Positions 20,240 to 41,901 of a stretch of DNA of 43,900 nt are shown here, piece after piece. Both the position numbers and the translations under genes were made by a program. Within the stretch, counting starts at the first letter, position 1. Each line of letters begins with the position of its first letter. Location: positions 1 through 43,900 of the forward strand of contig DAHXNO010000091.1 of the NCBI GenBank assembly GCA_027365345.1, written 5' to 3'. The DNA comes from Granulicella sp. Its GTDB lineage: Bacteria > Acidobacteriota > Terriglobia > Terriglobales > Acidobacteriaceae. The notes under the pieces are model-generated. The model had not been told where the DNA came from and searched no databases. It saw only the letters and a program-made list of their open reading frames with translations.

Positions 20240-21058
20240 ATGGAAATGGATGTGGATCCCTCCCCGGCGGAGGTTTCTCCCGACGAGCGCGAACGGATGG
20301 TGCGCAACTTTGCCGCCTGGCTCGACCGCGCGCTTGAGGACGAGCAGCCGCCCGAAGGGCTGCCCCCGGAGTTGCTCTCCGCGCTCGCGAACGGCGAACC
20401 ACTTCCGCCATTTGAAGACGCGCGGGCCGCCGATCAAGGCGGCGATCTTTATTCATTGTGGGCTGCCATGACAACGCTGGCGCAGGAAGTTCGCGTGCAG
20501 GGACGGCTCTTCAAGCAATTGAACGAAACCCTGATCGAGAGCGCGCAAAGCAGCGATGCGCCGGACCAGGAAGCTGTGGTGGAACCGGACGGCGCACAGG
20601 AGACCGGGCGCGAAGCTTCTGGCGGCAGCCAGCCCCGAAAGCAGGAGATCGATCTGCTGCTCGATCTGCGTGACCGCATGGAGCGCGGCATCGCGACCGT
20701 GCGCAATGCGGCCGATGAGCTGGCGCCCGCACGGCTGCCGCGTCGGGTTCGTTGGCTGGCGAGGGGCCGCCGCCATGCGCAACACCTCCAGGAGGTGCTG
20801 CTAGCGCTCTCCCATGGCTACAGCCTCACGCTGGATCGCCTGGATGAGGCGCTGGTGGACTGCGGCGTGGACCGCATCCATTGTCTGAATCGCGTCTTCG
20901 ATCCGCAGTGCATGAACGCGGTGGACATCGAGGAGACCGCCGATGTGCCTGAAGGGACGGTGGTCGCGGTCTATCGAGACGGCTTCGAGTGGAACGGAAA
21001 AATCTATCGCACCGCGCAGGTGAAGGTGGCGCGCAACACGGGAGGCAAACTCAAATGA
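20240..21058 (+). CDS. GrpE-like nucleotide exchange factor of the Hsp70 cluster
   Basis: A 272-residue protein whose C-terminal third matches the GrpE beta domain: NRVFDPQCMNAVDIEETADV, then PEGTVVAVYRDGFEWNGKIY and RTAQVKVAR. GrpE proteins open the Hsp70 nucleotide cleft to release ADP. The N-terminal half is longer than in housekeeping GrpE, acidic and Pro-rich at first, with helical parts (QEVRVQGRLFKQLNETLIE; LLLDLRDRMERGIATVRNAA) instead of one long coiled coil. The start codon directly follows the J-domain stop, with AAGGAG upstream. The stop overlaps the Hsp70 start (ATGA). It is a specialised GrpE dedicated to the neighbouring Hsp70 rather than the general copy. Confidence 0.85.
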   Translation: MEMDVDPSPAEVSPDERERMVRNFAAWLDRALEDEQPPEGLPPELLSALANGEPLPPFEDARAADQGGDLYSLWAAMTTLAQEVRVQGRLFKQLNETLIESAQSSDAPDQEAVVEPDGAQETGREASGGSQPRKQEIDLLLDLRDRMERGIATVRNAADELAPARLPRRVRWLARGRRHAQHLQEVLLALSHGYSLTLDRLDEALVDCGVDRIHCLNRVFDPQCMNAVDIEETADVPEGTVVAVYRDGFEWNGKIYRTAQVKVARNTGGKLK

Positions 21059-23492: not shown

Positions 23493-25226
23493 CTAAGGCT
23501 CGCGGGCTGCCCAGGTTGGCTCTGGAGATCGGGCGGCATAGACAGGACCAGAACCCGCGGCGGTCTTCCAGGTTCTGTAACCACCGGTCAGATTCCGCAC
23601 TCGAAAACCGTGATGAATAAGAATGCGAGAGGCGAAGTAAGACCGTTGGCCGGATTGGGAGGTAAGGATGATTTCGCGGTCACGCGGCAGTTCGAAGATT
23701 CGAAAGCGGAGTTCGTTCAGAGGAATATGAATGGACCCGGGAATGAACCCATAGGCGCGCTCGTCAGCACGGCGTACGTCGAGAAGAAGGACTTTGCCGC
23801 GATCGAGTCCTTTCATGTCGTTCCACTGAAGAACCCGTGCATCACCGGCAAGAACATCCTGTGCCGCCATCCCAGCCATGTTGACAGGATCTTTGACTGA
23901 GCTGAAGGGCGGGGCGTAGGCGAGTTCAAGCTCTGCAATTTCGTTCACGGTAAGACCGCCCTTGAGCGCGGTGGCGAAGACATCGATGCGCTTGTCAACT
24001 CCGTCACGCCCGACGGCCTGCGCCCCCAGAAGCTTACCGCTATCCGGGGAGAAGAGAACTTTAACGGCGATCGACTCTGCTCCTGGGTAGTAGTCGGCGT
24101 GGGAAGCATGGTGCAGGTGGACTCGCTCGAAGCGAATGCCGGCCTTCCGCAGGGACTTCTCGTTTGCTCCAGTGCAGCCTGCGGAAAGGCGAAAGAGCCG
24201 CAGGATGGTGGTGCCCCAGGCGCCATCATAGGTCGAGAGACGGCCGGCTATGTTGTCAGCCGCTACTCGTCCCTGGCGGTTCGCAGGACCTGCCAGAGGC
24301 AGAAGGCTCCACGCTCCGGTAACGGCATCGCGAACCTCAATGGCGTCGCCCACGGCCCAGATCTTCGGGTCGCTGGTCTGCAGGTGCGCATTGGTGTGGA
24401 TGCCTCCGAGCGCGCCGATCTTCAGCCCAGCTTCTCTGGCCAGCCGCGATTCGGGCCGGATGCCGAGACCGAGTAAAACAACATCGGCTTCGATTCGGTG
24501 TCCACTCTTGAGTACGACCACCGAGGCGAGAGCATTCTCTCCAGCACGCCGTTCTTCAAAGGCTGTGACGGGGTCATTCAGGTAGAGGTCCACCGCATTG
24601 TCCCGCAGTTCGTCATGCAACCACGCGGCCATCTCAGGATCAAGCGGCGCCATCACCTGCGGCTGGCCTTCCACAATCGTCACCTGTAGGCCACGGCGCT
24701 TGAGCTGTTCGGCCATCTCCAGCCCAACATACCCACCGCCGATAACCACAGCGCGACAGGACCAGCAGTCCTTGATCCAAGCTTCAAAGTGTTGTGAACC
24801 GGGAATATCACGGAGCGAAAAGTGGCCGGCGCGGCCAATGCCGGGAATCGGTGGGAGAACTGGCGAAGCGCCGGTGGCGAGAATCAGTGCATCATAGTGC
24901 AGCTCATACTCGCGGCCAGTTTCAAGCTCAGCAACCGTGATCACCTGATGCTCTCGTTGGATGGAACGAACCTCAGAGCGGATCCGGACATCGAGATTGA
25001 GTTGGGCGCGAAGCGAGGCCGGCGTGTGGACCCGGAGGGAATCCACATCCGCAATCTCTCCGCCGACAAGATAGGGCAGGCCGCAGTTAGCGAAGGAGAC
25101 GTAGGGCCCGCGTTCGAGTACGACGACCTCACACTGTTCGCATAGGCGCCGAACGCGAGCAGCGGCGCTCGCACCCCCGGCGACGCCCCCCACAATCACG
25201 ACCCGCATTTGATCCAGGGTGGTCAT
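23493..25226 (-). CDS. CoA-disulfide/persulfide reductase-like flavoprotein with C-terminal rhodanese domain lacking its Cys
   Basis: A 577-residue pyridine-nucleotide-disulfide oxidoreductase. FAD binding is seen in VVIVGGVAGGASAAARVRRL; the redox Cys48 in SFANCGLPY marks the single-Cys CoA-disulfide reductase/NADH persulfide reductase class; NAD(P)H binding is in VVIGGGYVGLEMAEQLKRRG. The dimerisation domain covers about 335-455. A rhodanese domain follows (VLLLDVRRADERAYGFIPGS, LTGGYRTWK). Its active-site loop reads SQSGQR, so the catalytic Cys is Ser523 and sulfur transfer by this domain should be lost. Relatives reduce CoA-persulfide or polysulfide. It ends the sulfur gene block, 296 bp after the DsrE2-like gene. 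The ATG at 25226 was preferred because the extra 34 residues to 25328 are not conserved-looking. Confidence 0.85.
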   Translation of the reverse strand: MTTLDQMRVVIVGGVAGGASAAARVRRLCEQCEVVVLERGPYVSFANCGLPYLVGGEIADVDSLRVHTPASLRAQLNLDVRIRSEVRSIQREHQVITVAELETGREYELHYDALILATGASPVLPPIPGIGRAGHFSLRDIPGSQHFEAWIKDCWSCRAVVIGGGYVGLEMAEQLKRRGLQVTIVEGQPQVMAPLDPEMAAWLHDELRDNAVDLYLNDPVTAFEERRAGENALASVVVLKSGHRIEADVVLLGLGIRPESRLAREAGLKIGALGGIHTNAHLQTSDPKIWAVGDAIEVRDAVTGAWSLLPLAGPANRQGRVAADNIAGRLSTYDGAWGTTILRLFRLSAGCTGANEKSLRKAGIRFERVHLHHASHADYYPGAESIAVKVLFSPDSGKLLGAQAVGRDGVDKRIDVFATALKGGLTVNEIAELELAYAPPFSSVKDPVNMAGMAAQDVLAGDARVLQWNDMKGLDRGKVLLLDVRRADERAYGFIPGSIHIPLNELRFRIFELPRDREIILTSQSGQRSYFASRILIHHGFRVRNLTGGYRTWKTAAGSGPVYAARSPEPTWAAREP

Positions 25227-25522
25227 AGCATTTGCATCCCACTGGTTGGGTTGTATCCAGGATCGCGCAAAACAACGGCGATTCTCGTCAAAATAGCGTT
25301 TGAGTTCGGATGAACTTCGCACAAACATGACCCAGAAGAATTCGATCCATTATGGGGACACATCTCCGCGCACTCGCTTTCGATCGCAAGCAGACGCCGA
25401 AAACAGTTTTTCAACATATTCCTGAATTGGATGCGGGCGAATGGTGGAAGCTCAATGCCCTCGCGGAGCAAAAAGGCGCTGCCGCACATACCCAGCGAAG
25501 TGCGTGCGACAGCACCAACCCG

Positions 25523-26083
25523 TTAGAGGAAGAAGGCCTGCTTCGCCTCGCCCATGAGCTGGATGAAGGTTCCGACACCGACATAGTCCAGATTCGGGTA
25601 ATCGATCATCTCCTCCTCTTTGAAACCCATCACCCCCATGGACATCTCGCAGATATGGATGCGAACGCCGCTTTCGCCGGCCTCTTTCATCAGTTGCTCC
25701 AGAGATTTCACTCCATGTTTTTTCATGACAGAGCGAATCATCCTGGGCCCCATACCGCACATCTGCATCTTGCTCAGTGGAAGCGACATGGAACTGCCGG
25801 GCAGCATGCGGCCGAACATCTTCTCCATGAAGTTCTTCTTAGCTTTCTTTTTGGGATCGCGCAGAGCAGCGACAGCCCAGAAGGTATAGAACATGTCCAC
25901 TTCAATATCGTAGGCTGTGGCTCCCAGGGCGATGATGAAGGCGGCTATGGTCGTGTCCAGATTTCCTGACATCACGCCCAGCGCCAAGCGGTTGTCGCCC
26001 GCGTTCCGTTCGATGGTCTCGACACGGGCGCTGAGCTGTTCGATTGCCTGTTGCATCTCCAGTAAAGAGGGTGTCTCAGACAT
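25523..26083 (-). CDS. DsrE2-like sulfur carrier protein
   Basis: A 186-residue DsrE/DsrF/DsrH-family protein of the DsrE2 subtype. Such proteins carry sulfane sulfur on a conserved Cys and exchange it with TusA. The N-terminal 35 residues form a coiled helix (MQQAIEQLSARVETIERNAG). The DsrE fold then runs from LALGVMSGNLDTTIAAFIIA to the end. Candidate carrier cysteines lie in KMQMCGMGP and, in the typical C-terminal position, in HICEMSMGVMGF. A membrane-like hydrophobic run (TTIAAFIIALGATAY) fits the first strand and helix. The AAAGGAAG box lies seven bases before the ATG. It sits 31 bp after the QmoC-like gene and is likely co-transcribed with it. Confidence 0.88.
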   Translation of the reverse strand: MSETPSLLEMQQAIEQLSARVETIERNAGDNRLALGVMSGNLDTTIAAFIIALGATAYDIEVDMFYTFWAVAALRDPKKKAKKNFMEKMFGRMLPGSSMSLPLSKMQMCGMGPRMIRSVMKKHGVKSLEQLMKEAGESGVRIHICEMSMGVMGFKEEEMIDYPNLDYVGVGTFIQLMGEAKQAFFL

Positions 26084-26114
26084 GATGGTCTTCCTTTCTG
26101 AATCAGAAACTCAG

Positions 26115-27326
26115 TTACGAATGCGTTGCGACAGCGGCCGCTGTCTCGGGAGCGGGAGCCTTGGCCCACTCATGGAGGGCCAGCGCCAGCGTCCTATAGA
26201 CCACATGTGCAAATTTGGTCAGCGGCAAAAGAACGATCAGATCCATGGCCAGTACGATGTGACTCATAAAGGTCACGTATCCGAACAGGGTGGGATGGGG
26301 CATATAGACCACGATGAGGGTGCCAAGACCAGTCAATACGGTCGCCGTCAGGAGCACCAGGAAAAACCAGTCGCCGAAGGAACTCTTGTCATAGGGAGTC
26401 TCCTTGGCCTGGATTCTCCGACCGATGGCGATGCTCAGGCCGTAGAGGCATACCAGGCCACCCACCAGGCCCAGGATGCGCATGGGATACCAGGGCGGAA
26501 CGGGAGAACCGATGGGCTTGAAAAGGTAGTCGAGCGTGGTAGCCAGCAGCATCGCAAGGAAGCCCCACATGATCGTGCCATGGACAAACCAGGCACGAAG
26601 ATGGAGCGGTTCCGATGGAGCAGGTTCGTCCTTGTCGCACTGGCGGAAGCGATCATGATTGAGCGCATCCACAATCGCTGACCAGATAGAAGGAATCAGG
26701 GCGGCGATGGGATACGGAGGACGCTCGCCGGCTTGATTCTTCCTTCCCATCACGCGAGCCACCATGGAAACAACACCGAAGGCGAGCGTCAGGCCGATCA
26801 CGATGAACAGGGCGATGCCGATGCCATGGACCCATTCGCCCGGGATGAAGCGGAAGAGTTGGGTCGAGCCATAGCCGCTGAAGAGATTCCCGTTGCTGCC
26901 CATGGCCATCTCGCCTTTACGCCGCAGAAGCAGCAGGGAGAAGAAGCCGGAGAGTACGAGGAAGACGATGATGTTGAAGACGGGGGAGCGATACATCAAC
27001 CCGGAGAGCCCGGTCGCGTCATACCGCGAGATCGCGTAGCTCCGTGCCGCTGCCATAAACTGCATGGGATCGGCTTCCCGCGGGCAGGTCTTGGTGCATT
27101 CACCGCACGCATAGCATCGCCACAGATCCTCCTGCGCCAGGAGTTCCTTTTCCATTCCTACTTGCGCCATGCGAATGATACGGCGGGGAAAGCCTGCGGA
27201 ATCCTCCGCGAGCGGACAAACCGCTGTGCAATTCCCGCAGTTGAAGCACGCACTCACATTCAGCGTGCCGTCGGCGCCGTGCTTCTTGATCTTTTCCAAT
27301 AGTGCGACATCGATCGCGTGTGCCAT
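26115..27326 (-). CDS. qmoC: QmoC-like membrane subunit (HdrC ferredoxin domain fused to HdrE/NarI-like cytochrome b domain)
   Basis: A 403-residue fusion. Residues 20-110 carry two [4Fe-4S] motifs, CFNCGNCTAVCP and CYACGECTKTCP, as in HdrC. About six membrane helices follow, with histidines suited to haem b or quinone binding (GEWVHGIGIALF; RAWFVHGTIMWGF; MSHIVLAMDLI; TKFAHVVYRTLAL). This HdrC-HdrE fusion defines QmoC, the quinone-interacting membrane subunit of the Qmo complex that exchanges electrons between menaquinone and the cytosolic HdrA-like flavoproteins. Length agrees with QmoC (about 390). I chose the ATG at 27326, six bases from a GAGGA box, over the one two codons earlier. Neighbouring qmoA- and qmoB-like genes support the call. 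Confidence 0.85.
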   Translation of the reverse strand: MAHAIDVALLEKIKKHGADGTLNVSACFNCGNCTAVCPLAEDSAGFPRRIIRMAQVGMEKELLAQEDLWRCYACGECTKTCPREADPMQFMAAARSYAISRYDATGLSGLMYRSPVFNIIVFLVLSGFFSLLLLRRKGEMAMGSNGNLFSGYGSTQLFRFIPGEWVHGIGIALFIVIGLTLAFGVVSMVARVMGRKNQAGERPPYPIAALIPSIWSAIVDALNHDRFRQCDKDEPAPSEPLHLRAWFVHGTIMWGFLAMLLATTLDYLFKPIGSPVPPWYPMRILGLVGGLVCLYGLSIAIGRRIQAKETPYDKSSFGDWFFLVLLTATVLTGLGTLIVVYMPHPTLFGYVTFMSHIVLAMDLIVLLPLTKFAHVVYRTLALALHEWAKAPAPETAAAVATHS

Positions 27327-27347
27327 GACCATTCCTCGGAGTTTGTA

Positions 27348-27665
27348 TTAGTGACCGGCTGCGGTGGCTTCTTCGCTCTGAACCAGGGCATAGAGCAGAT
27401 AGTCTCCGTCTTCGCCTGCTTCGGTTACGAACCCATACTTGCGCATGCCTGTCAGGTGCCACAGAGTCTGGTCTGTGGGGAGTTGAAGCGCAGCAGCGAT
27501 CTGGGGTACGGTTGCCGGCTTTTCGGCCAGCAACTTTCGGATCCCCTTGCGCGCAGCGACAAGCTGCCTCTGATGTTCCTTCTTGGCGTCGCTAATGCCG
27601 CCCATGCGCTCACGCATGGTCATCAGCGCTTGCTTTTCTTCGGGTGTAAGTGTCTTCTTCGCCAT
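27348..27665 (-). CDS. Small winged-helix-like protein in the Hdr/Qmo cluster
   Basis: A 105-residue protein with a basic coiled N-terminus (TPEEKQALMTMRERMGGISD, AKKEHQRQLVAARKGIRKLL). A winged-helix-like segment follows: AEKPATVPQIAAALQLPTD, QTLWHLTGMRKYGFVTEAG and a wing DGDYLLYALV. It has no Cys and no membrane segment. It sits between the QmoB-like and QmoC-like genes with short gaps (28 and 21 bp) and a good AAGGGAGAG ribosome-binding site. It may be a structural or assembly factor, or a regulator whose DNA-binding fold was reused. Its conserved-looking position inside the operon argues against a simple repressor. The function is unknown. Confidence 0.7.
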   Translation of the reverse strand: MAKKTLTPEEKQALMTMRERMGGISDAKKEHQRQLVAARKGIRKLLAEKPATVPQIAAALQLPTDQTLWHLTGMRKYGFVTEAGEDGDYLLYALVQSEEATAAGH

Positions 27666-27693
27666 GATCTATCTCTCCCTTGACCTGTTCAGA

Positions 27694-29694
27694 TCAACCC
27701 AGATGCACCAGTTCAGGTTGGCAGTCTCCGTGGGGGATATCGGCCATCAGGCCGTCCACCATCGATTCAAACTGATCCAGACGCCAGCCATTGAGCTCTA
27801 GAGCGCGATGCGGGCAGACCGGGACGCACGCGCCACAACCGACGCAAAGACCAGCGTTGACCTCGGCACGCTGCACCGTCTGTCCATCCACCTCTTTCTC
27901 TACCAGTTGCAGAGCCCCTTCGTAGTCGCACTGGGTAACGCAGATTCCTTCTCCACAGCAGAGTGAGGAATCGACCGAGGCGACGAATGGATTCAGCTCC
28001 ACCATCTCGTGGGCAAACATGGCCGCTGCCTTCACGGCCGCGGCGCCGGCGGCGTTGAGCGTCTCCTGGATGTTCATTGGGGCTTGCGCGGTGCCGGCCA
28101 GCAGGACGCCATTCACAGCCACCTCAACCGGGCGCAGCTTGGGATGGACCTCTTGGAGGAAGTGATCCTCGCCCGTGGGTAGCTTGATGCTCTCGATGAG
28201 ATCCTGGATGGGAGACGGCGTCATGCCAACACCCAGCACGACCATGTCCACGGGAACTGCCAGATCTTCTCCCCAGGTGAGCATGTCTTTTACCGTAATG
28301 GTGATCGGACCTGCCTTGCGGCTGCGCGGCAGATGCCCCTTGGCGTCCATCGTACGTTCTACCTGAGGCGGATCTTCGCCGTTGAAGCGGAAGAAGACCA
28401 CGCCCTCCTTGCTCGCATTGATGTAGTAGTCTTCTTCGCCTCGACCGTAGGTTCGAATGTCGCGGTGAAAATCGTACACCTGAATCTTTGGGAAGCGCTT
28501 ACGGAGAGCCAGCGCCTGTTGAAGAATCGTACTGCAGCAGGTGCGGGAACAATACTTGTTCAGCGTTCCATCCGGCTGTGGCTCATGCACGCCATCCAAC
28601 TGCCTGCTACCAACGCAATGGAGGAAGGCGACGCTGCGGATATTGCGTCCGTTGTACTCAAAGCTTTTGGCCGCAGGATCCATATTTTGCATCATCTGGA
28701 TAAACTCGGGCGTGGTCACCACGCACGGATCCTGATGATAGAGGAACTCTCCATCACGGGGCACGTAGGGACGATAGCCCGTGGCCAGGACGATTGCGCC
28801 TACCAGAGCATCGCGTTTGTCAAAGCCGCCCGCAGGACCAAAGGGACCCTCAATGACAGTGCGGAAGTTCCCGATGAAGCCGTCAACCGCGGTGACCTTG
28901 CTATTGAGCAGAAGATCGATCTTGTCGTTGTTTCGAACCTGCTTCTCAAGATCGGCAACAATCTCGCTGGCCATCGTCTCTGAGGGATAGACGCGACCCC
29001 TTTCGTTGAGCTGGCCACCCAGCCGACCCGAGCTCTCCACCAGCAACACCAGGATGCCGCGCGCCGCCAGTTCAGCCGCGGCCTTCATGCCTGCAATCCC
29101 GCCGCCGATGACCAGCGCCTTGCGATGGTTCGGCAGTTTGATCAGATCGAGCGGCTGTGCGTTCTGCAGTCTCCCTACGGCCGCCGTGATCATGCGAATG
29201 GCCAGTTGGGTTGCTCCCTCAGGATCATGCTTATGCGCCCAGGAGCCCTGCTCCCGTATGTTGACGTGCTCATAAAGATACGGGTTCAGGTTGCCGCGCG
29301 AAACCGCGCCGCGGAAGGTCTGTTCGTGCAGGAACGGCGAGCACGACGCCACGACGACGCGATCCAGACCGTTCTCCAGAATGTCATTACTGATCATGTG
29401 CTGACCAGGGTCGGAACACATGAAGGTGTGAACCTTGGATATGGTCACGCCTGGCACCATACCTACGATCTGAGCTGTGCGCTCCACGTCGACGACGTCA
29501 GAGATATTACCGCCGCAGCGGCAGATGTAAACTCCCACTTTAGGCTCTGCCGGATCTCCAGCTCGTTCGCGGTCTTCCGCTTGCTTCTGCTTGATAATCT
29601 CGTGCTGTCTTCCATACTCGGTGTCGTCCTTGAGAACAATGTTCTCGTGGTCTTCATTTGCGGGCTGTCCTGTGGAATGGCTATTGTCGCTCAT
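27694..29694 (-). CDS. qmoB: HdrA-like iron-sulfur flavoprotein, QmoB-like but without MvhD domain
   Basis: A 666-residue HdrA family protein. Residues 50-150 hold the N-terminal HdrA domain with YICRCGGNISDVVDV and MCSDPGQHM. FAD binding is at ALVIGGGIAGMKAAAELAAR, followed by GRLGGQLNERG. The internal Cys-rich segment HCVGSRQ...YCSRTCCSTI, which ligates a cluster in HdrA, is present. Two C-terminal ferredoxin motifs, CCGEGICVTQC and CVGCGACVPVCP, end the protein. Canonical QmoB is longer because an MvhD domain is fused at its end; here that domain is missing and a separate MvhD-like gene lies at 31084-31590. An AGGAGG box precedes the ATG at 29694. It would pass electrons between QmoA/QmoC-like partners and an unknown cytosolic acceptor or donor. 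Confidence 0.82.
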   Translation of the reverse strand: MSDNSHSTGQPANEDHENIVLKDDTEYGRQHEIIKQKQAEDRERAGDPAEPKVGVYICRCGGNISDVVDVERTAQIVGMVPGVTISKVHTFMCSDPGQHMISNDILENGLDRVVVASCSPFLHEQTFRGAVSRGNLNPYLYEHVNIREQGSWAHKHDPEGATQLAIRMITAAVGRLQNAQPLDLIKLPNHRKALVIGGGIAGMKAAAELAARGILVLLVESSGRLGGQLNERGRVYPSETMASEIVADLEKQVRNNDKIDLLLNSKVTAVDGFIGNFRTVIEGPFGPAGGFDKRDALVGAIVLATGYRPYVPRDGEFLYHQDPCVVTTPEFIQMMQNMDPAAKSFEYNGRNIRSVAFLHCVGSRQLDGVHEPQPDGTLNKYCSRTCCSTILQQALALRKRFPKIQVYDFHRDIRTYGRGEEDYYINASKEGVVFFRFNGEDPPQVERTMDAKGHLPRSRKAGPITITVKDMLTWGEDLAVPVDMVVLGVGMTPSPIQDLIESIKLPTGEDHFLQEVHPKLRPVEVAVNGVLLAGTAQAPMNIQETLNAAGAAAVKAAAMFAHEMVELNPFVASVDSSLCCGEGICVTQCDYEGALQLVEKEVDGQTVQRAEVNAGLCVGCGACVPVCPHRALELNGWRLDQFESMVDGLMADIPHGDCQPELVHLG

Positions 29695-29740
29695 ACGCCT
29701 CCTCTCGGGTTTTTCCGTTATGCTGTTGACTTGGTCCGGC

Positions 29741-31087
29741 TTATCCAACCAATACCGGGTCCTGTGCGTATTCCACTGCGGCGGCGCCGCGCTTCTGGTG
29801 GAGATATTGACTGACCTGCATCGCAGCGGCTCCAGCCTCGGCAATCGTGTCGACGATATCCTTTGGGCCCGCGGCGACGCCGGCGACGAAGATGCCGTTG
29901 GCGGTGGTGGAAGTTGGGGCGGTCAGCATGGGTGTGGCTACAAAGCCATCGGAGGCCACCGCGACTGGGGTTCCAATCGACGGATTCCACTCTGGAACCA
30001 TCCCCTGCGCCAGTACGACAAGGTCATGCCGCCGTTCCTGCAGGATGTTCTCCGCGTCTTCCGTGGTCTCGACATGAAGAGAGAGATCGCCGTCTTCGAT
30101 GGGATCGATGCGGGCAACTTTCCCGCGGACGAAGTTTATGCCCATCGCTTTAGCGTTTTGATAGAACTGTTCGTAACCCTTTCCAAACGCACGGATATCC
30201 ATGTAGTAGATGGTGATATCCGCGATGGGAAGAGCGCCGGAGAGCAGCATGGCCATCTTGATGGAGTACATGCAGCAGACGCGCGAGCAGTAGGGAACGC
30301 CAATGGATGCATCGCGAGAACCAGCGCACAGCACAAAAGCGACTGAGGAAGGAACTTTGCCGTCAGAGGGGCGGAGCACCCGGCCATAGGGTCCGTGAGG
30401 CGCCAGGAGACGCTCCATCGTCAGCGCTGAAATAATGTTTTTGCTCTGCAAAGCGTGGTACTGCGGCTTCACACTGAGGGAGTTCAGAGCATAACCTGAG
30501 GCGACGATTACGGCGTCCGTCTCCATCTCCACTTCCTCGGACTGCTGGTCGAATTCGATGGCGTCGGTCGGGCATACCCGGGCGCAACTTCCGCAGGTAG
30601 TGCAGAGTTCCGGATCAAGCACAGCCTTTTGCGGAATCGCGTTGGTGAAGGGAACCGCAATGGCGCGCTTGGCTCCCAACCCCTCTTCAAAAGGATCGGG
30701 ATATTCGCTATCGCAGGCATACTCGCACAGACGGCAACCGATGCACTTGTCAAAGTTGACGTACGTTGCCTTTTTGAACAACTTTACAAAGTGCGTTCCT
30801 CTGACAGTTCGGATGCCCCGCACTTCGGTATTGACCATGATGCGGATGTTTTCATGGTGCGCGGATGCAGACATCTTCGGCGCGGTGATGCAGCTGGCGC
30901 AATCAAGCGTAGGAAAGACTTTGGCCAGCGCGATCATGTGACCGCCGATGCTGGACTGACGTTCCACGAGGAGCACCTGCAGTCCCTGGTCGGCGAGGTC
31001 GAGAGCCGATTGCATGCCGGCGATGCCTGCGCCGACGATGATGGCGTCGGGCCGATAGGAAGTTTTATCCTGCGTACTCGTTGTCAT
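29741..31087 (-). CDS. qmoA: HdrA-like iron-sulfur flavoprotein, QmoA-like
   Basis: A 448-residue protein covering the FAD part of HdrA without its N-terminal domain, as in QmoA. FAD binding is in AIIVGAGIAGMQSALDLADQ and SSIGGHMIALAKVFPTLDC. The conserved CASCITAPKM segment follows. A two-cluster ferredoxin insert gives CIGCRLCEYAC and CTTCGSCARVCP. Then come CAGSRD and YCSRVCCMYSIK and a C-terminal FAD-binding end with GIFVAGVAAGPKDI. QmoA and QmoB together make the cytosolic flavin/Fe-S core of a quinone-linked complex. Its ATG overlaps the stop of the MvhD-like gene (TTATGA) and it precedes the QmoB-like gene by 46 bp, so the subunits are translated from one message. Confidence 0.83.
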   Translation of the reverse strand: MTTSTQDKTSYRPDAIIVGAGIAGMQSALDLADQGLQVLLVERQSSIGGHMIALAKVFPTLDCASCITAPKMSASAHHENIRIMVNTEVRGIRTVRGTHFVKLFKKATYVNFDKCIGCRLCEYACDSEYPDPFEEGLGAKRAIAVPFTNAIPQKAVLDPELCTTCGSCARVCPTDAIEFDQQSEEVEMETDAVIVASGYALNSLSVKPQYHALQSKNIISALTMERLLAPHGPYGRVLRPSDGKVPSSVAFVLCAGSRDASIGVPYCSRVCCMYSIKMAMLLSGALPIADITIYYMDIRAFGKGYEQFYQNAKAMGINFVRGKVARIDPIEDGDLSLHVETTEDAENILQERRHDLVVLAQGMVPEWNPSIGTPVAVASDGFVATPMLTAPTSTTANGIFVAGVAAGPKDIVDTIAEAGAAAMQVSQYLHQKRGAAAVEYAQDPVLVG

Positions 31088-31590
31088 AACGCGACCCTTT
31101 CTCCAGTTGTTATGGTGCTGGCCAAGCTGTAGCGTGCTGAGGTTACCAGCCGTTGGCGCGACTCCTGGCGAAGCGTTTCCGCCAAGGTGCGGTTGACGGG
31201 CCCTAGCCGCGCGAGGTTCTCTTCCATCTCAGCGATCTCCTTGAGAAACGCCTTGATGCATACCGTGCAGATCGCGGTCAGGCGGATGCGCTCTATCTCC
31301 AGGCCGCCATCTTTCATGTGAACCGTCAGATCGTCGATGCGCTTCGCCAGCCGTTCATAGGCTCCGTGGTAAGGACAATCCGAGCCGCAGGCGGCAATGA
31401 TGATGCCATCAACCCCTTTGCTGTAGGCCCTAAGATAGAAGTCTTCAGGGAACAGAACGGGAGATAGAACCCGCAGGATGAACACCTCGGAAGGGTACTC
31501 CAGGTGAGCTTTGCCTACTGCGTCTGCGCCCGGGTAGGCACACTTTTCGGTAGCCAGCACAAGTATTTTCGGTGTGAATCCATCAGCCAT
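31084..31590 (-). CDS. MvhD/FlpD-like hydrogenase iron-sulfur subunit homologue
   Basis: A 168-residue protein of the MvhD family, which in methanogens passes electrons from a hydrogenase or formate dehydrogenase to HdrA, and which is fused to the end of QmoB in sulfate reducers. Family features are KILVLATEKCAYPGADAVGK, LEYPSEVFILRVLSPVLFPE and DGIIIAACGSDCPYHGAYER. Cysteines at 17, 68 and 72 fit ligands of the family's [2Fe-2S] cluster. One or two further N-terminal Cys expected in MvhD read L-A-T-E here, and an extra C108-x2-C111 occurs near the end, so the cluster site may be remodelled. The AAGGGG box supports the ATG at 31590. It overlaps the QmoA-like gene by 4 bp. Confidence 0.8.
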   Translation of the reverse strand: MADGFTPKILVLATEKCAYPGADAVGKAHLEYPSEVFILRVLSPVLFPEDFYLRAYSKGVDGIIIAACGSDCPYHGAYERLAKRIDDLTVHMKDGGLEIERIRLTAICTVCIKAFLKEIAEMEENLARLGPVNRTLAETLRQESRQRLVTSARYSLASTITTGERVAL

Positions 31591-31701
31591 GCTGCACCCC
31601 TTGATAGACCGCGCATTTCCTTGCACGGTCTTGATAATTCTTTTGCTAAGGACGGTTGCCGTGGAAAGCGGCAACCTCCCCAACCTCTACTTCCGGAACC
31701 T

Positions 31702-31956
31702 CTACTTTTTGCGAAGAACAAAGAGCCGGTCGTGTCCGTCCGCCTCTACTAGTCCCAGAAACTCGTGCCCTACCTTCGATGACCAAGTAGCAAGATCTTT
31801 GCGCGAGCCCTTATCGTTTGACTTCACCTCGATGACCTGACCGACCTTGACGGCGCCAATGCCTTTCTTGGCTTCGAGAAGAGGACCAGGGCAGGCGGTG
31901 CCACGGGCGTCGATTACTTTGTCTGCGGTGAGGGTGGAAAGTTGTTCTGTAGTCAT
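31702..31956 (-). CDS. tusA: TusA-family sulfur carrier protein
   Basis: An 84-residue SirA/TusA-fold protein. The signature Cys22-Pro-Gly-Pro is in DARGTACPGPLLEAKKGI, with the second half (VGQVIEVKSNDKGSRKDL, LGLVEADGHDRLFVLRK) completing the fold. TusA carries persulfide sulfur on this Cys and hands it to DsrE-type or rhodanese-type partners. The gene sits 15 bp after the ArsR-type regulator gene and upstream of the MvhD/Hdr-like genes, which ties it to the dissimilatory type of TusA rather than to tRNA thiolation. Confidence 0.93.
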   Translation of the reverse strand: MTTEQLSTLTADKVIDARGTACPGPLLEAKKGIGAVKVGQVIEVKSNDKGSRKDLATWSSKVGHEFLGLVEADGHDRLFVLRKK

Positions 31957-31971
31957 GATGTGCTCCTTTGG

Positions 31972-32388
31972 TTAGCTGTGATTCGTGAATCGTGCTGCGA
32001 CTGAAACGTCGCCGGGTTGGCTTATGTTTGGGTCTACTTCCAGGGAGCAGGAGGACGGCGCTTCAAATTCTTCCGACCGCCTCAAGTCTTCCAAAGCGTC
32101 GCGGATCAGGTTGGCGGCCTCGAAGAACCTGTTGTCCGCCATTTTGTAGAAGACTGTCTGTCCCTGCCGTTCGGATGTAACTGCGCCACGGTCGCGCATC
32201 AGGCGGAGATGTTGCGAAGCGTTCGATACGGAGATCTCCGCTTCCGCTGCAATCCGCGTCACCGTCTTTCCGCCGTTCTGCAGCGCACAAAAGATGCGCA
32301 TCCGAGTCGCGTGGGCAAAGATCATGAAAAAGTCGCCCATGCGCACGCAGTCCAGGTGGCGATCTCGATCCGTTGTTTTCGTGATCAT
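31972..32388 (-). CDS. ArsR-family winged-helix regulator of the sulfur gene block
   Basis: A 138-residue ArsR/SmtB-type regulator. GDFFMIFAHATRMRIFCAL, then VTRIAAEAEISVSNASQHLR and MRDRGAVTSERQGQTVFYKM give the full winged helix. Cysteines are few (near residues 14, 34 and 113), so sensing by a metal or by two thiols, as in SqrR/BigR-type sulfur regulators, is possible but not shown. GGAGGAAGG precedes the ATG. It is the first gene of the block TusA-MvhD-QmoA-QmoB-wHTH-QmoC-DsrE2, so autoregulation together with the operon is likely. Confidence 0.88.
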   Translation of the reverse strand: MITKTTDRDRHLDCVRMGDFFMIFAHATRMRIFCALQNGGKTVTRIAAEAEISVSNASQHLRLMRDRGAVTSERQGQTVFYKMADNRFFEAANLIRDALEDLRRSEEFEAPSSCSLEVDPNISQPGDVSVAARFTNHS

Positions 32389-33023: not shown

Positions 33024-34331
33024 CTAGAAGCGATATCCGATCTGGAATCCAACTGAGTTTTCTGACATGGAAGCTTGTAACGGCTGGACGGGCATACCCA
33101 ACAGAGTTCCATCGGTTACGTCGCTCTTGAAGGTGTGCATGGCGGCCTCGGTCAGACTCCATCGCATCGGCAGCTTCTGCGTGGCGCCGAAGGTTACGGC
33201 GGTCGTCACGATGGCCGGCATCAGCAGGTTGGCCTGAAGGTCGGAGTTGTGGATCGGATCCGTGCCATAGGTAAAACCAGCTCGTACCTGCCAAGTCTTG
33301 TTCAGGTCATATTGGGCGCCAAGGTTCGCAACCCATTCGTTTTGCCAATTCAAGGGCAACGCTACGTTATTTGTGCCAACCCATGGACCAAAGACTTTGA
33401 ATTGATGCATGGTGCTATGCCAGTTAAGCCACTGACCCTCCATGCTAATCAGTAATTTGTGAACGGGGTAGATGGCCGCGCCGAAGGCCACTTGCTGGGG
33501 ATAGTTGAGGTGGGCGCAGTAGGACCCCTCGCCTCCAGAGACACCAACGGGTCCGGTGGCGCCCACACCTGTGGGAAGGAACTCCTGATTTTCCTGCCAG
33601 AAGAGGTGCGTGAACTTCATCACTGACTTATACGAGGCGCCAAAGGTCAGCTTATCGTTGTACTTGTACATGCCGCCGATCGTTGCGCCAATGCCATAGG
33701 CCCAGGAGGGACTGATAAGGTTGAATCCCTGCCCACCGAAGGTTTCATCGAATGAGACCTGTTCGGCAGCGCCGTCAAGCGCCAGGCCAAGGCTGGATCT
33801 GTCTGTCACCTTGAATGCAACGGCAGGAGCCATCTGCATAAAGTTGATGCTGCTAAATGCCTGGATGGTGCCCATAGGGGTATTGGGCTGCAAGTAATTC
33901 ACGCCCAGTCCAGAGGTGCCATAGATTCCGCCACCGAAGTAGATGTCGGGACGAAAGGCCGGTGCTGACCAGCCCAGAGCTGGTATGGCGTAGACGTTGG
34001 TGTGGCTGCCGGTGTTGCCAAAGCCAAAGTTTGTATTCCGCTCCGGGTTAAAGATCTCTCCGGAAAATGCGGTTTGCGATGCCAGCCATGCCAGTCCGGC
34101 TGGGTTGCTGATGGCTGTCATGGGATCGCAGGGTGCGGCGACAACCGCGCCTCCCATGCCCATGGCGCACTGCCCAACGCCAATGAGTTGGTATCCGTTG
34201 GTGGCCCACGCTGCCGTGCTCAGCAACAGCAGCGCCAGGCCCGAAAGAATCGGTGGGATGGCGCTGCGCACCACCCTGCAGAACTCTCTGTCTTCGCCGA
34301 CCGACATGATCGTGGTTCGATTGCTTTTCAT
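33024..34331 (-). CDS. FadL/TodX-type outer-membrane channel for hydrophobic compounds
   Basis: A 435-residue outer-membrane beta-barrel. The N-terminus has a signal peptide (PPILSGLALLLLSTAAWA). The FadL hatch follows: NGYQLIGVGQCAMGMGGAVV and MTAISNPAGLAWL, the N-P-A signature of the family. Alternating amphipathic strands continue to a terminal aromatic residue (FQIGYRF), as required by the BAM complex. FadL proteins move hydrophobic molecules such as fatty acids or aromatics across the outer membrane. The substrate here is unknown; the neighbouring sulfur genes make a hydrophobic sulfur compound one idea, but that is speculation. The AAAGGA box supports the ATG. It follows the DUF302-like gene by 99 bp and probably shares its sigma-54 promoter. 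Confidence 0.88.
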   Translation of the reverse strand: MKSNRTTIMSVGEDREFCRVVRSAIPPILSGLALLLLSTAAWATNGYQLIGVGQCAMGMGGAVVAAPCDPMTAISNPAGLAWLASQTAFSGEIFNPERNTNFGFGNTGSHTNVYAIPALGWSAPAFRPDIYFGGGIYGTSGLGVNYLQPNTPMGTIQAFSSINFMQMAPAVAFKVTDRSSLGLALDGAAEQVSFDETFGGQGFNLISPSWAYGIGATIGGMYKYNDKLTFGASYKSVMKFTHLFWQENQEFLPTGVGATGPVGVSGGEGSYCAHLNYPQQVAFGAAIYPVHKLLISMEGQWLNWHSTMHQFKVFGPWVGTNNVALPLNWQNEWVANLGAQYDLNKTWQVRAGFTYGTDPIHNSDLQANLLMPAIVTTAVTFGATQKLPMRWSLTEAAMHTFKSDVTDGTLLGMPVQPLQASMSENSVGFQIGYRF

Positions 34332-34430: not shown

Positions 34431-35387
34431 TTATTGCGAGGCCTCCTTGAGAGATTTTTCGATGGAGCCGGGAGCGCAGCGGATGGTGAGAAACCCGTTG
34501 GACCCCATCATGCTGAGATCAGGAAAGTTGATCGCGATGCGGAACTTTGCGGGAAGAGCATAAACCTTGCCCCCGGAGACCAGGACCTCGTACGGAAGAT
34601 GGCCGGTGGACTTGATGCTTTGGTCGTCAATGATGCTCATGACGTGGAGATCGCCGCCGCAGGCGTTGTTCGCCGGGCCGGAGAGTGCAACCCCGAAGAG
34701 CGTCTGCTGCTTGCCGGGGATGGCAACCTGGTAAACCTTGCTGGTTCCACCCTTGTGGGCGGCAAGGCCGGCGTTCACCGCCTCGAGCGCCTTGTCATAG
34801 TTGTCGTACGTGGCCAACAGATCCTGGTCGGTGAAGTACGGCATCATCATCTTGTAGTGATAACTCCGCAGGGCGGCTGGGCTCAGGCCGTTCTTCGATC
34901 CGTAGGCCTGCTGCGCTCCCAGGGCTTTGCCGAGCTGCGCTTCAACGCCGCCGAGACTTGACGTCAGCCGATAGGCATCTCCCATGTAGGCGGGATTCGT
35001 GTATGCCACCTGAATCTGATCATTTACTTTGGTCACGGTCACGCGCTGTACCACCGCGTAGCCGCCAAATTCAGTTTGTGAAGCAGCCTGCTTGAGGGCC
35101 GGGTTGGTAACACCGATCACCTCCGCGCTAACCACCTCGCCCTTGGAGAACTTCGCGTCCGTGTACGGGCTATATTGGCCCACGATCTCAAAACCGGCGG
35201 CCGTGAGCTTCTGCTCCACCTGCTGGACAACCTGCGCCATGTTTCCACTGGTGGTGTAGGCAAGCTCGAACGGACGTTCCTGGGCGGCCGCCCGCGCCAG
35301 GTTGGACACAGACGCCAGAACAAGAGCGAGCAGAGATGCCTTGCTGCATACAGACGCGAATAGAAATGCCTTCTTCACCTTGAACAC
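34431..35387 (-). CDS. Periplasmic protein with DUF302-like domain
   Basis: A 318-residue exported protein. VKKAFLFASVCSKASLLALV, then LASVSNLARAAA is a signal peptide. The segment FELAYTTSGNMAQVVQQVEQ, KLTAAGFEIVGQYSPY resembles the start of a DUF302 fold, and the second half (VYQVAIPGKQQTLFGVALSG; CGGDLHVMSIIDDQSIKSTG; YALPAKFRIAINFP) may be a related repeat. The function is unknown. The GTG at 35387 is preferred: it directly starts the signal peptide and has AAAGGG six bases upstream, whereas the extension to 35567 would run through the sigma-54 promoter. It is the first gene under that promoter and pairs with a FadL channel, suggesting a periplasmic binding or handling partner for the imported compound. 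Confidence 0.72.
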   Translation of the reverse strand: MFKVKKAFLFASVCSKASLLALVLASVSNLARAAAQERPFELAYTTSGNMAQVVQQVEQKLTAAGFEIVGQYSPYTDAKFSKGEVVSAEVIGVTNPALKQAASQTEFGGYAVVQRVTVTKVNDQIQVAYTNPAYMGDAYRLTSSLGGVEAQLGKALGAQQAYGSKNGLSPAALRSYHYKMMMPYFTDQDLLATYDNYDKALEAVNAGLAAHKGGTSKVYQVAIPGKQQTLFGVALSGPANNACGGDLHVMSIIDDQSIKSTGHLPYEVLVSGGKVYALPAKFRIAINFPDLSMMGSNGFLTIRCAPGSIEKSLKEASQ

Positions 35388-35492
35388 CGAATCCCTTTCA
35401 CCAAAGACTGCTGGACGCAAACCCTCTGTCAACGTTCGGCCGCTGCAAGGATGTACCGGATGCAGCGAAGTACGTGCTTCGCTGTCAGTAGA

Positions 35493-35508
35493 AGCAAGTC
35501 CTTTGCCA
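35493..35508 (-). promoter_or_regulatory. Sigma-54 (-24/-12) promoter for the DUF302-like/FadL operon
   Basis: On the minus strand the sequence reads TGGCAA-AGGAC-TTGCT, against the sigma-54 consensus TGGCAC-N5-TTGCW. The invariant GG and GC dinucleotides are correctly spaced. Transcription would start about 95 bases before the GTG of the DUF302-like gene. A sigma-54 activator gene lies immediately upstream. Confidence 0.8.
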
Positions 35509-35559
35509 AACCGGAAAACGCAATTGTTCCAGGGGATTATCGGATATTCAGATGTTGAA

Positions 35560-35610
35560 TGAAACACCGTGTTGCAACATCGCGTTGCATGGCTGACACA
35601 CTTTGTTTCA
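35560..35610. promoter_or_regulatory. Probable upstream activator site for the sigma-54 regulator
   Basis: TGAAACA (35560-35566) and its inverted copy TGTTTCA (35604-35610) frame a 51-bp region that also holds the perfect palindrome TGTTGCAACA (35570-35579). It lies about 50-115 bases upstream of the -24 box, the usual place for enhancer-binding protein sites, and runs into the stop codon of the activator gene. Confidence 0.5.
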
Positions 35611-37044
35611 GCCGTTGCGCTCGTCGGTCAGGCGCAATTCGCGCATGCGACGCCACAGCGTGGAGCGGCTCAGGCCGAGAGAGTGCGCAGTCTCGGAGCG
35701 GTTCCAGTGGTGCGCCTCCAAGGCTGCCACCAACTGCTCGGCCTCGGTCGGGGGAAGCGCGGGCGGTAGAGCCGCAGGCGCCGATCGCGCTTCACGGTCG
35801 ATGGCGATCTGGCGGCTAATGGGAGGAGAATTTCGGATCTCCTCCGGAAGGTTCTCGGGCAGGATCGTCTCCATCTTTGCTACCGCGACAGCGTACTCCA
35901 TCACGTTGGACAGTTCTCGGACATTGCCGGGCCACGGATAATCGATCAGGAGACGCATCGCTTGTGGAGAGATGCGCCGTATCAGACCGTGTTCCGTCGT
36001 AATGCGATTCAAGAGATGCTCGGCGAGCGGCGGTATGTCCTCGCGGCGTTGCCGCAAAGGCGGCACTTCGATAGGGACGACGCAGAGTCGGTAGTAGAGG
36101 TCCTCGCGGAGTTTGCCCTGTTGCAGGGCGACGCGCAGGTCCGCATTGGTTGCGGCAATCACACGGACATCGGCGATCCGCGCGACGCTCTCGCCGACGC
36201 GCTCGTATTGCCCCCCTTGCAGAACGCGCAGCAGCTTCACCTGCTGGACCGGCGGCATGTCACCGATCTCATCCAGGAAGAGCGTTCCCCCGGAGGCCAG
36301 TTCGAAGCGTCCCACGCGATCCCGAACCGCGCCGGTGAACGCTCCGCAGATGTGACCGAAGAGCTCGGATTCGAGTAGATCCGCGGGGACGGCGCTGCAA
36401 TTCAGAGCAATGAACGGGCCGTTCCGGCGCGGGGAGTTGTCGTGGATCGCCCTGGCCACCACCTCCTTGCCAACACCGCTCTCACCGGTGATCAGCACTG
36501 GAGCTTCGCTATGCCGCAGCGCCTCCACCATGCGAAAGATGCGCTGCATGGCCGGAGAGCAGACGACGGCATTGGAGACAAAGGTGGCTGAGTCAGAATA
36601 GATGCCTTCAGACTCGGCGGGCCGCAGCAGAATGACATAAGCTACGCGCGGGTCGCAGATGGAGGCGTCGCCGTGCAGAAGGGGTGCGGCAGTAATGGAG
36701 ACGAGACGCCTGGTCCCTTCGCCAAGCTGCAAGGTGGCGCGCCAACCTTCGCGCTTCAAACCTTCCTGCAAAGCTTGTCGAAGGGGTGTTCCCGGCCCAA
36801 TCAGGCTGGACCCAAGCAACTCCTCGATGCTGTGGCCGGGAAGCGTCCGGGCCACGCCGCTACCGATCAGGTCGTCCAGCAGATAGGACGCATGCACGAT
36901 ACGAAACGATGCGTCCATACAAACGAAGGTTCTATCTACGGATGCAAGCACCTGCGTGACACCGTACAGCGCAGCCTTTGTATCTTCGCTGAGCTGCTCG
37001 TGATGGATTAAACACGATTCCTGTTCCGGGATACGCTTCTCCAC
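35608..37044 (-). CDS. PAS-containing sigma-54-dependent transcriptional activator (Fis-type HTH)
   Basis: A 478-residue enhancer-binding protein without a receiver domain. Residues of about 25-145 form a PAS-like sensor (LASVDRTFVCMDASFRIVHA). The AAA+ domain has Walker A GESGVGKE, the sigma-54 contact loop GAFTGA (in ELFGHICGAFTGAVRDRVGR), Walker B GGTLFLDEIGD and the arginine-finger region FRQR-like LRQRREDI. The C-terminal Fis HTH is VAALEAHHWNRSETAHSLGL, SRSTLWRRM. I chose the GTG at 37044, seven bases after AGGAG; the ATG at 37080 has no ribosome-binding site. It lies next to a sigma-54 promoter serving the DUF302-like and FadL genes, its likely targets. The signal is unknown. Confidence 0.9.
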   Translation of the reverse strand: MEKRIPEQESCLIHHEQLSEDTKAALYGVTQVLASVDRTFVCMDASFRIVHASYLLDDLIGSGVARTLPGHSIEELLGSSLIGPGTPLRQALQEGLKREGWRATLQLGEGTRRLVSITAAPLLHGDASICDPRVAYVILLRPAESEGIYSDSATFVSNAVVCSPAMQRIFRMVEALRHSEAPVLITGESGVGKEVVARAIHDNSPRRNGPFIALNCSAVPADLLESELFGHICGAFTGAVRDRVGRFELASGGTLFLDEIGDMPPVQQVKLLRVLQGGQYERVGESVARIADVRVIAATNADLRVALQQGKLREDLYYRLCVVPIEVPPLRQRREDIPPLAEHLLNRITTEHGLIRRISPQAMRLLIDYPWPGNVRELSNVMEYAVAVAKMETILPENLPEEIRNSPPISRQIAIDREARSAPAALPPALPPTEAEQLVAALEAHHWNRSETAHSLGLSRSTLWRRMRELRLTDERNG

Positions 37045-37698
37045 GAGGGCTCTCCTACCGGTCTGCAATTGCCGTTCCATAATGCCGATTCAAGAAGCGG
37101 CGCCTTCTCCTTTCCTACCACAAAATGCTCGTTTAAAGGAGTCATTCCGACGGATCGAAGATGCAATGCCCGCAAGTCCGGCGATCGTGTCCCTCTTCCC
37201 CTATCATGCACGGTATGCCGCACTGTGCAAGTGTGCATCATCACATGGGACGCCCCGTTGGGCTGCCTCCGGCCAAGTGGCAGCGCTGCTTCAGGGGGGA
37301 GTTGGGCAAAGTTTGGGGCTGGCGCCGTCCTGCCGCCTGATGCGCGTGACCACCTCCGTGATCCCTGCTATGCCGGCTACTTCACCATCAAAATCGATGG
37401 CTATCAAGGCGGTGCGCTTGCTCTGTTGGCCCCGTACTAGAGAAACCCCCGCAAGTCTCTCGCAGGACGCTCACCCACCTCGCGAACAGGCCCCCTAACC
37501 AACCAGAGCCAGCAAGAACGACCCCCGAGAAATAGCCAATGTACAGAGCGTTGAGGACTTGACTGCCGCGATGAAGCAGGGAACCTCCCCCTATCGGCCC
37601 TTCATTTGCGAAATGCGGGGACGGCGCGTGCGGAGCCCCTGCCGAATGGAACTCCCAAGAAGAATCCGACGGTGATCCGAATGGTCAACGAATTCATC
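37045..37698. other. Gene-free stretch between the Hyf-like operon and the sigma-54 activator
   Basis: About 650 bp with no frame resembling a known protein. On the minus strand TTGCAC and CATGAT, 16 bp apart (37230 to 37203), could be the activator's promoter, but the match is modest. The Hyf-like operon ends at the right border. The rest may be decayed coding DNA. Confidence 0.35.
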
Positions 37699-38217: not shown

Positions 38218-38224
38218 GGTCGTA

Positions 38225-39772: not shown

Positions 39773-39774
39773 CT

Positions 39775-41229: not shown

Positions 41230-41230
41230 T

Positions 41231-41896: not shown

Positions 41897-41901
41897 TGTC
41901 T

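Follow-up and report, generated by a model that had tools for sequence, protein, structure and literature searches.

Here we describe a nine-gene operon within a 43,900-nt stretch of Granulicella sp. DNA (the whole of which we call the window) that couples sulfur-carrier genes to a split Qmo/Hdr-type complex, and for which we propose the role of a TusA-persulfide:quinone oxidoreductase, more likely working in the reductive than in the oxidative direction. We put the probability of this reading as a whole, which rests on sequence comparison, at roughly 0.5; that the complex is linked to sulfur carriers is highly probable, whereas the reductive direction taken by itself is mildly favored. The cassette at the heart of the operon is widely conserved and, as far as searched, undescribed: a split Qmo without Apr or Dsr is already in print (PMC10504309), and it is the association with TusA and DsrE that we did not find described.

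The window is contig C25 of genome G000 (4.2 Mb in 208 contigs, rated 100% complete and 0.15% contaminated). An earlier note on this DNA had placed nine co-directional genes here, and both their families and their location hold: all nine lie on the minus strand within 23493-32388, in the order ArsR, TusA, MvhD-like, QmoA, QmoB, winged-helix, QmoC, DsrE2 and a CoA-disulfide/persulfide-reductase-like flavoprotein. The first eight genes, ArsR through DsrE2, are tightly packed, no gap exceeding 111 nt and QmoA overlapping MvhD by 4 nt, and the flavoprotein gene follows DsrE2 after 297 nt. Starts were set by conservation rather than at the first possible start for MvhD (31590), QmoB (~29694) and the flavoprotein (~25225). 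The operon opens with an ArsR-family regulator (31972..32388; NF033788, 70.6 bits, over cut-off), in which two cysteines, one near the N-terminus and one in the motif RIFCAL, are common to most of the aligned Acidobacteria copies, followed by a TusA sulfur carrier with a CPGP motif (31702..31956; PF01206, 64 bits) and an MvhD/FlpD-like subunit encoded by a separate gene (31084..31590; PF02662, 76 bits). The QmoA-like protein (29741..31087) is an HdrA-type flavoprotein of 448 amino acids, a short form with two 4Fe-4S motifs, and the QmoB-like protein (27694..29694; first possible start 29844) is likewise an HdrA-type flavoprotein; for both, HdrA2 is the best NCBIfam model, each matching part of HdrA at 453 and 442 bits, respectively, where the cut-off is 1100. 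The name “split Qmo/Hdr” is apt because QmoA and QmoB match parts of HdrA best and MvhD is a separate gene. Between QmoB and QmoC lies a small winged-helix protein (27348..27665) with weak helix-turn-helix matches and a predicted fold like those of ArsR/SmtB proteins (TM ~0.5), which may be a regulator or a structural piece. The QmoC-like protein (26115..27332) joins an HdrC ferredoxin part (8 Cys) to a membrane part with four conserved His, and scores 209.6 bits with NF038018 (qmoC), under the cut-off of 300. The DsrE2 sulfurtransferase (25523..26083; PF13686, 154 bits) reaches 62 bits with the stricter NCBIfam DsrE2 model, whose cut-off is 210. The terminal flavoprotein (23493..25225) scores 458 bits with TIGR03385 (CoA-disulfide reductase), under the cut-off of 579, and carries a C-terminal rhodanese domain (PF00581, 60 bits).

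We looked for this gene order in other genomes, as the earlier note had proposed. Across 396 genomes of the phylum a QmoC match was found in 51 (E<=1e-20), and the 24 phylum loci that we read comprise a cassette class (TusA, MvhD, QmoA, QmoB, winged helix, QmoC), an Apr-linked Qmo class, and QmoC in other settings. A scan of a species-genome collection confirmed 389 relatives and contributed the best 80 of them, ranked, it seems, by likeness to the window's QmoC, and the resulting sample leans towards the window's own cassette type. After duplicate or partial loci (L110, L111, L112, L128 and L043) were dropped, 112 loci were left including the window, every one with QmoC by construction of the search; 97 have QmoC above 300 bits, and 66 of these also have QmoA and at least 2.5 kb upstream. 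The profiles behind the counts below derive from loci that are themselves counted (the window and Acidobacteriota loci), loci of one genus (e.g., L083, L084 and L104) are not independent, and “near” is limited to the stretch at hand, which is shorter than 12 kb in 25 of the 97.

The order TusA-MvhD-QmoA-QmoB-QmoC is kept in 64 of the 66 loci, with DsrE2 alone moving. By profile, MvhD and QmoB were found in all 66, TusA in 64, the winged helix in 56 and DsrE2 in 50; the winged-helix profile misses L093 and nine further loci (with Bacteroidota-type titles, once uncultured bacterium). A same-strand DsrE-family gene stands beside the cassette in 63 of 66, 50 by the DsrE2 profile and 13 by a weaker match or a DsrE-like neighbor; three neighbor clusters substitute for DsrE2, and of the single representative checked from each, two score over the DsrE cut-off. 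Among the remaining loci, L134 has a DsrE-family gene on the opposite strand only, 6.6-7.4 kb off, and L092 and L093 have neither a DsrE-family gene nor TusA. The 66 loci are drawn from nine or more bacterial phyla plus a single archaeal bin (L189), and the 97 QmoC loci include three archaeal ones (L181, L188 and L189). Titles of the relatives run through Acidobacteria, Planctomycetota, Chloroflexi, Actinobacteria, Bacteroidetes, Bacillota, Chthonomonadales, Fimbriimonadaceae, Verrucomicrobia, Chlorobiota, Deltaproteobacteria, Latescibacteria, Heimdallarchaeota and Archaeoglobales, although these records are mostly metagenome-assembled genomes, in which single odd taxa may be misbinned.

A number of cysteines and histidines are invariant or nearly so in the 64 cassettes in which we counted residues (L092 and L093 left out). 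C22 of TusA is kept in 64/64 copies and C145 of DsrE2 in 50/50, while QmoA has fourteen invariant cysteines (eight ferredoxin-type and six further; 64/64), QmoB fifteen (64/64) and QmoC eight (64/64) together with four histidines present in 63-64 of 64; by analogy with the NarI-like family, these histidines would fit two b-type hemes. The MvhD-like subunit is predicted to have the MvhD fold (model pLDDT 92), with MvhD chains of methanogen Hdr complexes as its best matches. The N-terminal cysteine pair of solved MvhD chains is not kept, one Cys being found there in 24/77 copies, and a C-terminal CxxC (C108/C111 in the window) is present in 75/77. In the model both cysteine places come after a strand and would sit at the same sheet edge, which would allow an iron-sulfur cluster or a redox-active cysteine pair to have moved inside one MvhD site.

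QmoA itself comes in two lengths. A long form, with an open frame of 903-1083 amino acids compared with 435-614 elsewhere, is found in 31 of the 66 loci, as called from open-frame length, with the insert scanned in L083 and viewed by eye in L088. In L083 an NAD(P)H-type module, Fer4_20 + Pyr_redox_2, which we take to be of the GltD/NfnB kind, is inserted between the ferredoxin motifs. The long form is scattered across the QmoC tree, suggesting an exchangeable electron-donor module. In the same tree, six comparison sequences (L045, L099, L100, L103, L044 and L096), the first four of which come from loci shown to be Apr-linked, fall outside the group of all others, a group that includes the TusA-less L092 and L093.

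Within the window's own genus the operon is found in a minority of genomes. Of the 28 same-genus genomes among 61 searched with QmoC, seven have a strong match, and the DsrE2 family occurs in exactly these seven, once each and at the operon. The full nine-gene order recurs in five more same-genus genomes (G003, G007, G013, G020 and G023); in G026 a short contig holds part of the operon with a broken QmoC frame. Records under the titles Acidobacteria bacterium and Granulicella sp. contain closely similar operons, whose QmoC is 84-86% identical. The earlier note had counted the persulfide-reductase-like flavoprotein as part of the set, which the wider sample does not bear out: a same-strand copy occurs at 7 of the 97 loci, six in this genus and the other at L081, and the protein is a lineage-specific accessory rather than part of the conserved core. 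Its NCGLPY active site is kept, with the Cys of CoA-disulfide reductases present, and the active-site Cys of its rhodanese domain, found in six aligned relatives, is here a Ser (codon TCC, 23658-23660, minus strand).

The absence of an AprAB, DsrAB, HdrB or lipoate-binding gene, also reported by the earlier note, extends to the whole genome as far as our searches for AprA, DsrA, CCG-domain and GcvH-family genes go, in an assembly of 208 contigs and with DsrB, AprB and HdrB not searched under their own models. AprA was not found in G000 at E<=1e-20 with a query that is AprA by TIGR02061 (over cut-off), and no DsrA over cut-off was found there, matches reaching ~28 bits against 392.85. A CCG-domain search, with no HdrB model of its own used, gave no HdrB-type candidate: the six CCG-domain matches lie in three genes, the first of which adjoins LutB (TIGR00273, over cut-off) and is therefore LutA-like, and the other two of which are larger membrane-type reductases, the membrane part read by eye. 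Nor did the GcvH-family search yield a lipoate-binding candidate in the genome, since its single gene scores over the GcvH cut-off and follows gcvT (gcvP next, by eye), as expected of the GcvH of glycine cleavage. AprA, AprB and Sat were not found at any of the 97 QmoC loci; with the same queries, all three over their family cut-offs, four Apr-linked control loci were positive for AprA and AprB, and two for Sat. In the loci sampled the gene order is not tied to aprBA, and with AprA and DsrA undetected in G000 there is no sign of a standard sulfate-reduction pathway there; constant company with aprBA or dsrAB, or such a pathway, were the outcomes that the earlier note had named as telling against a distinct system.

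A somewhat more varied picture emerged from whole-genome AprA and DsrA searches of 28 genomes, comprising 23 cassette genomes, three Apr-linked controls (G035, G301 and G393), and two genomes with QmoC but no TusA (G089 and G330). Among the 23, the whole cassette was read in 18 and part of it in G026 and G193, with G430, G142 and G211 assigned from a QmoC match and same-genus loci; G020 and G193 are 54% and 67% complete, respectively. AprA (E<=1e-20) is absent from 21 of the 23, including G000, and present in G171 and G176, while DsrA over cut-off is found in four (G003, G023, G171 and G176), with G193 just under, so that G171 and G176 have both. All three controls have AprA, and G035 and G393 have DsrA over cut-off (in G301 it is split and below); of the two TusA-less genomes neither has AprA, and G330 has DsrA over cut-off. 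We also observed that the same-genus G003 and G023 carry DsrA without AprA alongside the cassette, pointing to possible sulfite reduction in some members. Both COX1 and CydA are missing in 7 of the 23 cassette genomes, for five of which the cassette was read (G142 and G211 being assigned), and the window genome has both; the COX1 model, PF00115, also catches nitric oxide reductases, and some ~200-bit matches may not be oxidases.

We compared these features with the systems that the cassette most resembles, using open-licence literature in which each paper cited here is covered in part. Like canonical (type I) QmoABC, the cassette has subunits of types A, B and C and a quinone link, but unlike it has no AprBA partner found here, carries TusA and DsrE-family genes in the operon, and has a QmoC under the NCBIfam qmoC cut-off. 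In Thermosulfurimonas MvhD is fused to the C-terminal end of QmoB (PMC4911364), and in the control locus L045 the MvhD match likewise lies inside the QmoB reading frame, whereas the window's MvhD is the separate gene at 31084-31590. Type II QmoABC is described as closer to HdrA, occurring with or without Apr and Dsr, and of a role said to need experiments (Neukirchen et al. 2023, PMC10504309). The cassette may belong to this type: QmoA and QmoB have HdrA models, under cut-off, as their best NCBIfam matches, and the six comparison sequences branch separately from the window's QmoC in a tree that covers QmoC alone and does not include the named type II sequences (from Vulcanisaeta and Ammonifex). 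TusA, DsrE, the winged-helix gene and the NAD(P)H insert are not mentioned with type II Qmo in the covered part of PMC10504309, and no description joining TusA and DsrE to it was found in the parts of the open-licence literature that our searches covered, a body that leaves aside supplements and most subscription journals. Of the earlier claim of a distinct quinone-linked TusA/DsrE2 system, the link between these carriers and an Hdr/Qmo complex is supported, being conserved across phyla, and a split Qmo without Apr or Dsr is not new by itself.

With sHdr, the heterodisulfide-reductase-like system of sulfur oxidizers, the cassette shares (as does a Thermomicrobium cluster of sHdr type that also has lipoate-binding proteins; PMC6776052) HdrA-type flavoproteins accompanied by TusA and DsrE-family carriers and an HdrC-like part, here within QmoC. 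It differs in having membrane and MvhD-like subunits and in the lack of a detected HdrB-type or lipoate-binding protein (LbpA) in the window genome, and on the latter ground we rejected sHdr membership; as the earlier note had it, with AprA also not found in G000, the set fits neither an Apr-linked Qmo nor sHdr. TusA and a DsrE-family protein also occur together in the YTD cluster (YedE-TusA-DsrE), which is described in sulfur disproportionators and in marine acidobacteria (PMC12998232, PMC8528874), but no YedE-type permease is among the nine operon proteins, which include the Qmo/Hdr complex instead. The terminal flavoprotein resembles Npsr, the NADH-dependent persulfide reductase (PMC7969121, covered in part), in its CoA-disulfide-reductase family match, active-site Cys and rhodanese tail, and is unlike it in falling under the CoA-disulfide-reductase cut-off, in its rhodanese Ser, and in standing outside the conserved core. 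Finally, peatland acidobacterial bins with dissimilatory sulfur genes are reported, in the part of the paper covered, to be without tusA, dsrE2 and dsrEFH (PMC6018796), and differ in this from the window's operon, which has TusA and DsrE2.

Our proposal takes the core to be a cytoplasmic sulfane-sulfur (persulfide) oxidoreductase coupled to the quinone pool. TusA and DsrE-family proteins are sulfur carriers, and because both are near-constant in the cassette, carrier-bound persulfide is the most likely substrate. The DsrE-family sulfurtransferase would load TusA on its CPxP cysteine; QmoA, QmoB and the separate MvhD-like subunit would form a flavin/iron-sulfur complex acting on TusA-persulfide or on persulfide passed on from it; and QmoC, whose presence implies a quinone link, would connect this complex to menaquinone through its HdrC-type ferredoxin and b-heme-type membrane part. 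Run reductively, the system would turn persulfide sulfur into H2S with electrons from quinol, plus NAD(P)H in the long-QmoA forms, and its sulfur could come from elemental sulfur or polysulfide, in this genus perhaps entering via a FadL-type porin.

Several lines of evidence tilt the balance towards reduction. With HdrB, DsrAB and a lipoate-binding protein all undetected, we know of no route here from persulfide to sulfite; the lack of both oxidase types in 7 of the 23 genomes favors a reductive or anaerobic role; and a persulfide-reductase-like gene, of an enzyme class described in PMC7969121, ends the operon in this genus. A number of points weigh against this interpretation. That enzyme is also found in an archaeon that does not respire sulfur (PMC7969121), its homolog here is rare outside the genus, with L081 as the one same-strand copy there in 97 loci, and the rhodanese Cys is lost in the window genome. 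Judged by the redox potentials, menaquinol cannot readily reduce persulfide, the step being uphill, so that a second donor would be needed, and the NAD(P)H insert is missing from the short QmoA of the window. Moreover, DsrA in 4 and AprA in 2 of the 23 genomes make other couplings possible in some of them.

The same oxidase data can be turned around, since an organism with both COX1 and CydA could also use the complex for an oxidative role, as sHdr does: TusA-persulfide would be oxidized to sulfite or a bound intermediate, with electrons passing via QmoC to the quinone pool and on to oxygen or another acceptor. Electron flow from persulfide to quinone is downhill, and several of the Acidobacteria bins bear names that we take to suggest mine sites. 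TusA and DsrE-family carriers also serve the Hdr clusters of sulfur oxidizers (PMC6776052, PMC4175335). We nevertheless consider oxidation rather unlikely, given that HdrB-type, lipoate-binding protein, DsrA and AprA were all not found in G000 and that seven genomes have neither oxidase type. No CCG-domain gene recurs inside the cassettes either: a rough motif screen, too insensitive to be relied on since it recovered 2 of 4 control genes, had matches at 10 of 97 loci, none of them within the cassette on its strand, and a CCG gene cluster stands near 6 of the 97. A non-respiratory role, in which the complex keeps TusA and DsrE reduced or charged for persulfide and redox homeostasis or a biosynthetic sulfur relay, strikes us as unlikely. 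The cysteine-desulfurase-like neighbors at 9 of 97 loci would also fit a biosynthetic sulfur source, an ArsR-type gene is present at 27 of 97, and the spread is broad in lineages that are not known to respire sulfur. However, the near invariance of the heme-type His of QmoC makes it seem that the membrane link is used, and a cassette that only 7 of 28 genomes in a genus carry looks more like a dispensable trait, for energy or detoxification, than like a biosynthetic one.

That the cassette is a sulfate reducer's ordinary Qmo for adenosine 5'-phosphosulfate reductase, encoded at a distance from aprBA, is highly improbable, even though the subunit make-up resembles QmoABC and AprA and DsrA co-occur in two cassette genomes (G171 and G176). 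AprA and DsrA were not found in the window genome, AprA, AprB and Sat lie near none of the 97 loci, the window's QmoC scores under the qmoC cut-off, and the six comparison QmoC, four of them from Apr loci, sit outside the group of all others in the tree; we reject this explanation for G000 unless AprAB was missed in assembly gaps.

The cassette may represent an undescribed way to use or dispose of sulfur in many little-known bacteria and a few archaea, and the near-constant TusA and DsrE-family genes give type II Qmo, of unexplained role, a concrete candidate substrate in carrier-bound persulfide. If this is correct, many uncultured Acidobacteriota, Chloroflexota, Actinomycetota, Bacteroidota and others have a sulfur metabolism invisible to surveys of dsr, apr, sox and shdr genes, and the scattered long QmoA would offer a natural comparison for electron-donor choice by Hdr-type flavoproteins. 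More speculatively, the cassette could be a further sulfane-sulfur energy route beside Dsr and sHdr, built on a split-HdrA complex in which quinol and NAD(P)H (with long QmoA) would jointly reduce carrier persulfide by flavin-based confurcation, so that neither Dsr nor Apr nor a periplasmic polysulfide reductase would be required for many uncultured anaerobic lineages, and certain facultative acidobacteria, to respire elemental sulfur or dispose of it.

Our analysis also revealed that the conserved block is larger than the nine genes: in relatives the operon is preceded by genes for a porin of the FadL type, for a secreted protein and for an activator of sigma-54 promoters. In the window these are, all on the minus strand, a FadL/OMPP1-type outer-membrane transporter adjoining the operon (33024..34331), a protein without a Pfam match whose start looks signal-peptide-like by eye, the true start being probably further in (34431..35567), and a sigma-54-dependent activator (35608..37080). 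FadL is kept in L038-L042, the L038 stretch ending within it, and the other two genes are kept in L039-L042. A sigma-54-like -24/-12 site (35493..35508, minus strand) lies upstream of the 34431-35567 gene; L039 and L040 have a similar site in the corresponding position, L041 and L042 gave none, and it is the only such site shared with relatives (two of four). Scanned over the whole window, the sigma-54 pattern gave 27 sites against 26.6 expected from shuffles, and a scan for sigma-70 promoters and terminators likewise did not exceed the number in shuffled sequence.

FadL-type porins were also seen near 12 of the 97 loci (L038-L042, L083, L084, L104, L118, L119, L183 and the window), from several phyla by title. 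Assigning FadL as a sulfur porin is a guess on our part; a paper on a zero-valent sulfur transporter concerns, in the part covered, YedE and not FadL (PMC10812762). Among other neighbors, class-V aminotransferase (cysteine-desulfurase-like) genes lie near L124, L149, L157, L163, L168, L170, L171, L177 and L178, as judged from one scanned representative, L149. CCG-domain (HdrD/DsrK-like) genes lie near QmoC in L092, L149, L157, L163, L178 and L188, with the CCG domain confirmed in L163 only, and in L149, L157, L163 and L178 the CCG gene has a membrane gene beside it that is NarI-like by eye.

Farther upstream, a complex-I/hydrogenase-4-like gene set (37699-43900, minus strand) encodes NuoB-, NuoCD-, NuoH- and antiporter-like subunits; since no nickel-binding CxxC was seen by eye in the large subunit, it may specify a hydrogenase-related (Ehr-type) complex. 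We dropped this Hyf/Ehr-like complex as a part of the system, its genes not being found in the stretches of 19 relatives, of which just a few (e.g., L106 and L108) extend well beyond the activator. On the other side of the operon, overlapping GrpE- and Hsp70-family genes on the plus strand (20240-22968), which may encode a chaperone pair additional to the principal one, lie beside a large open frame at 17129-19918.

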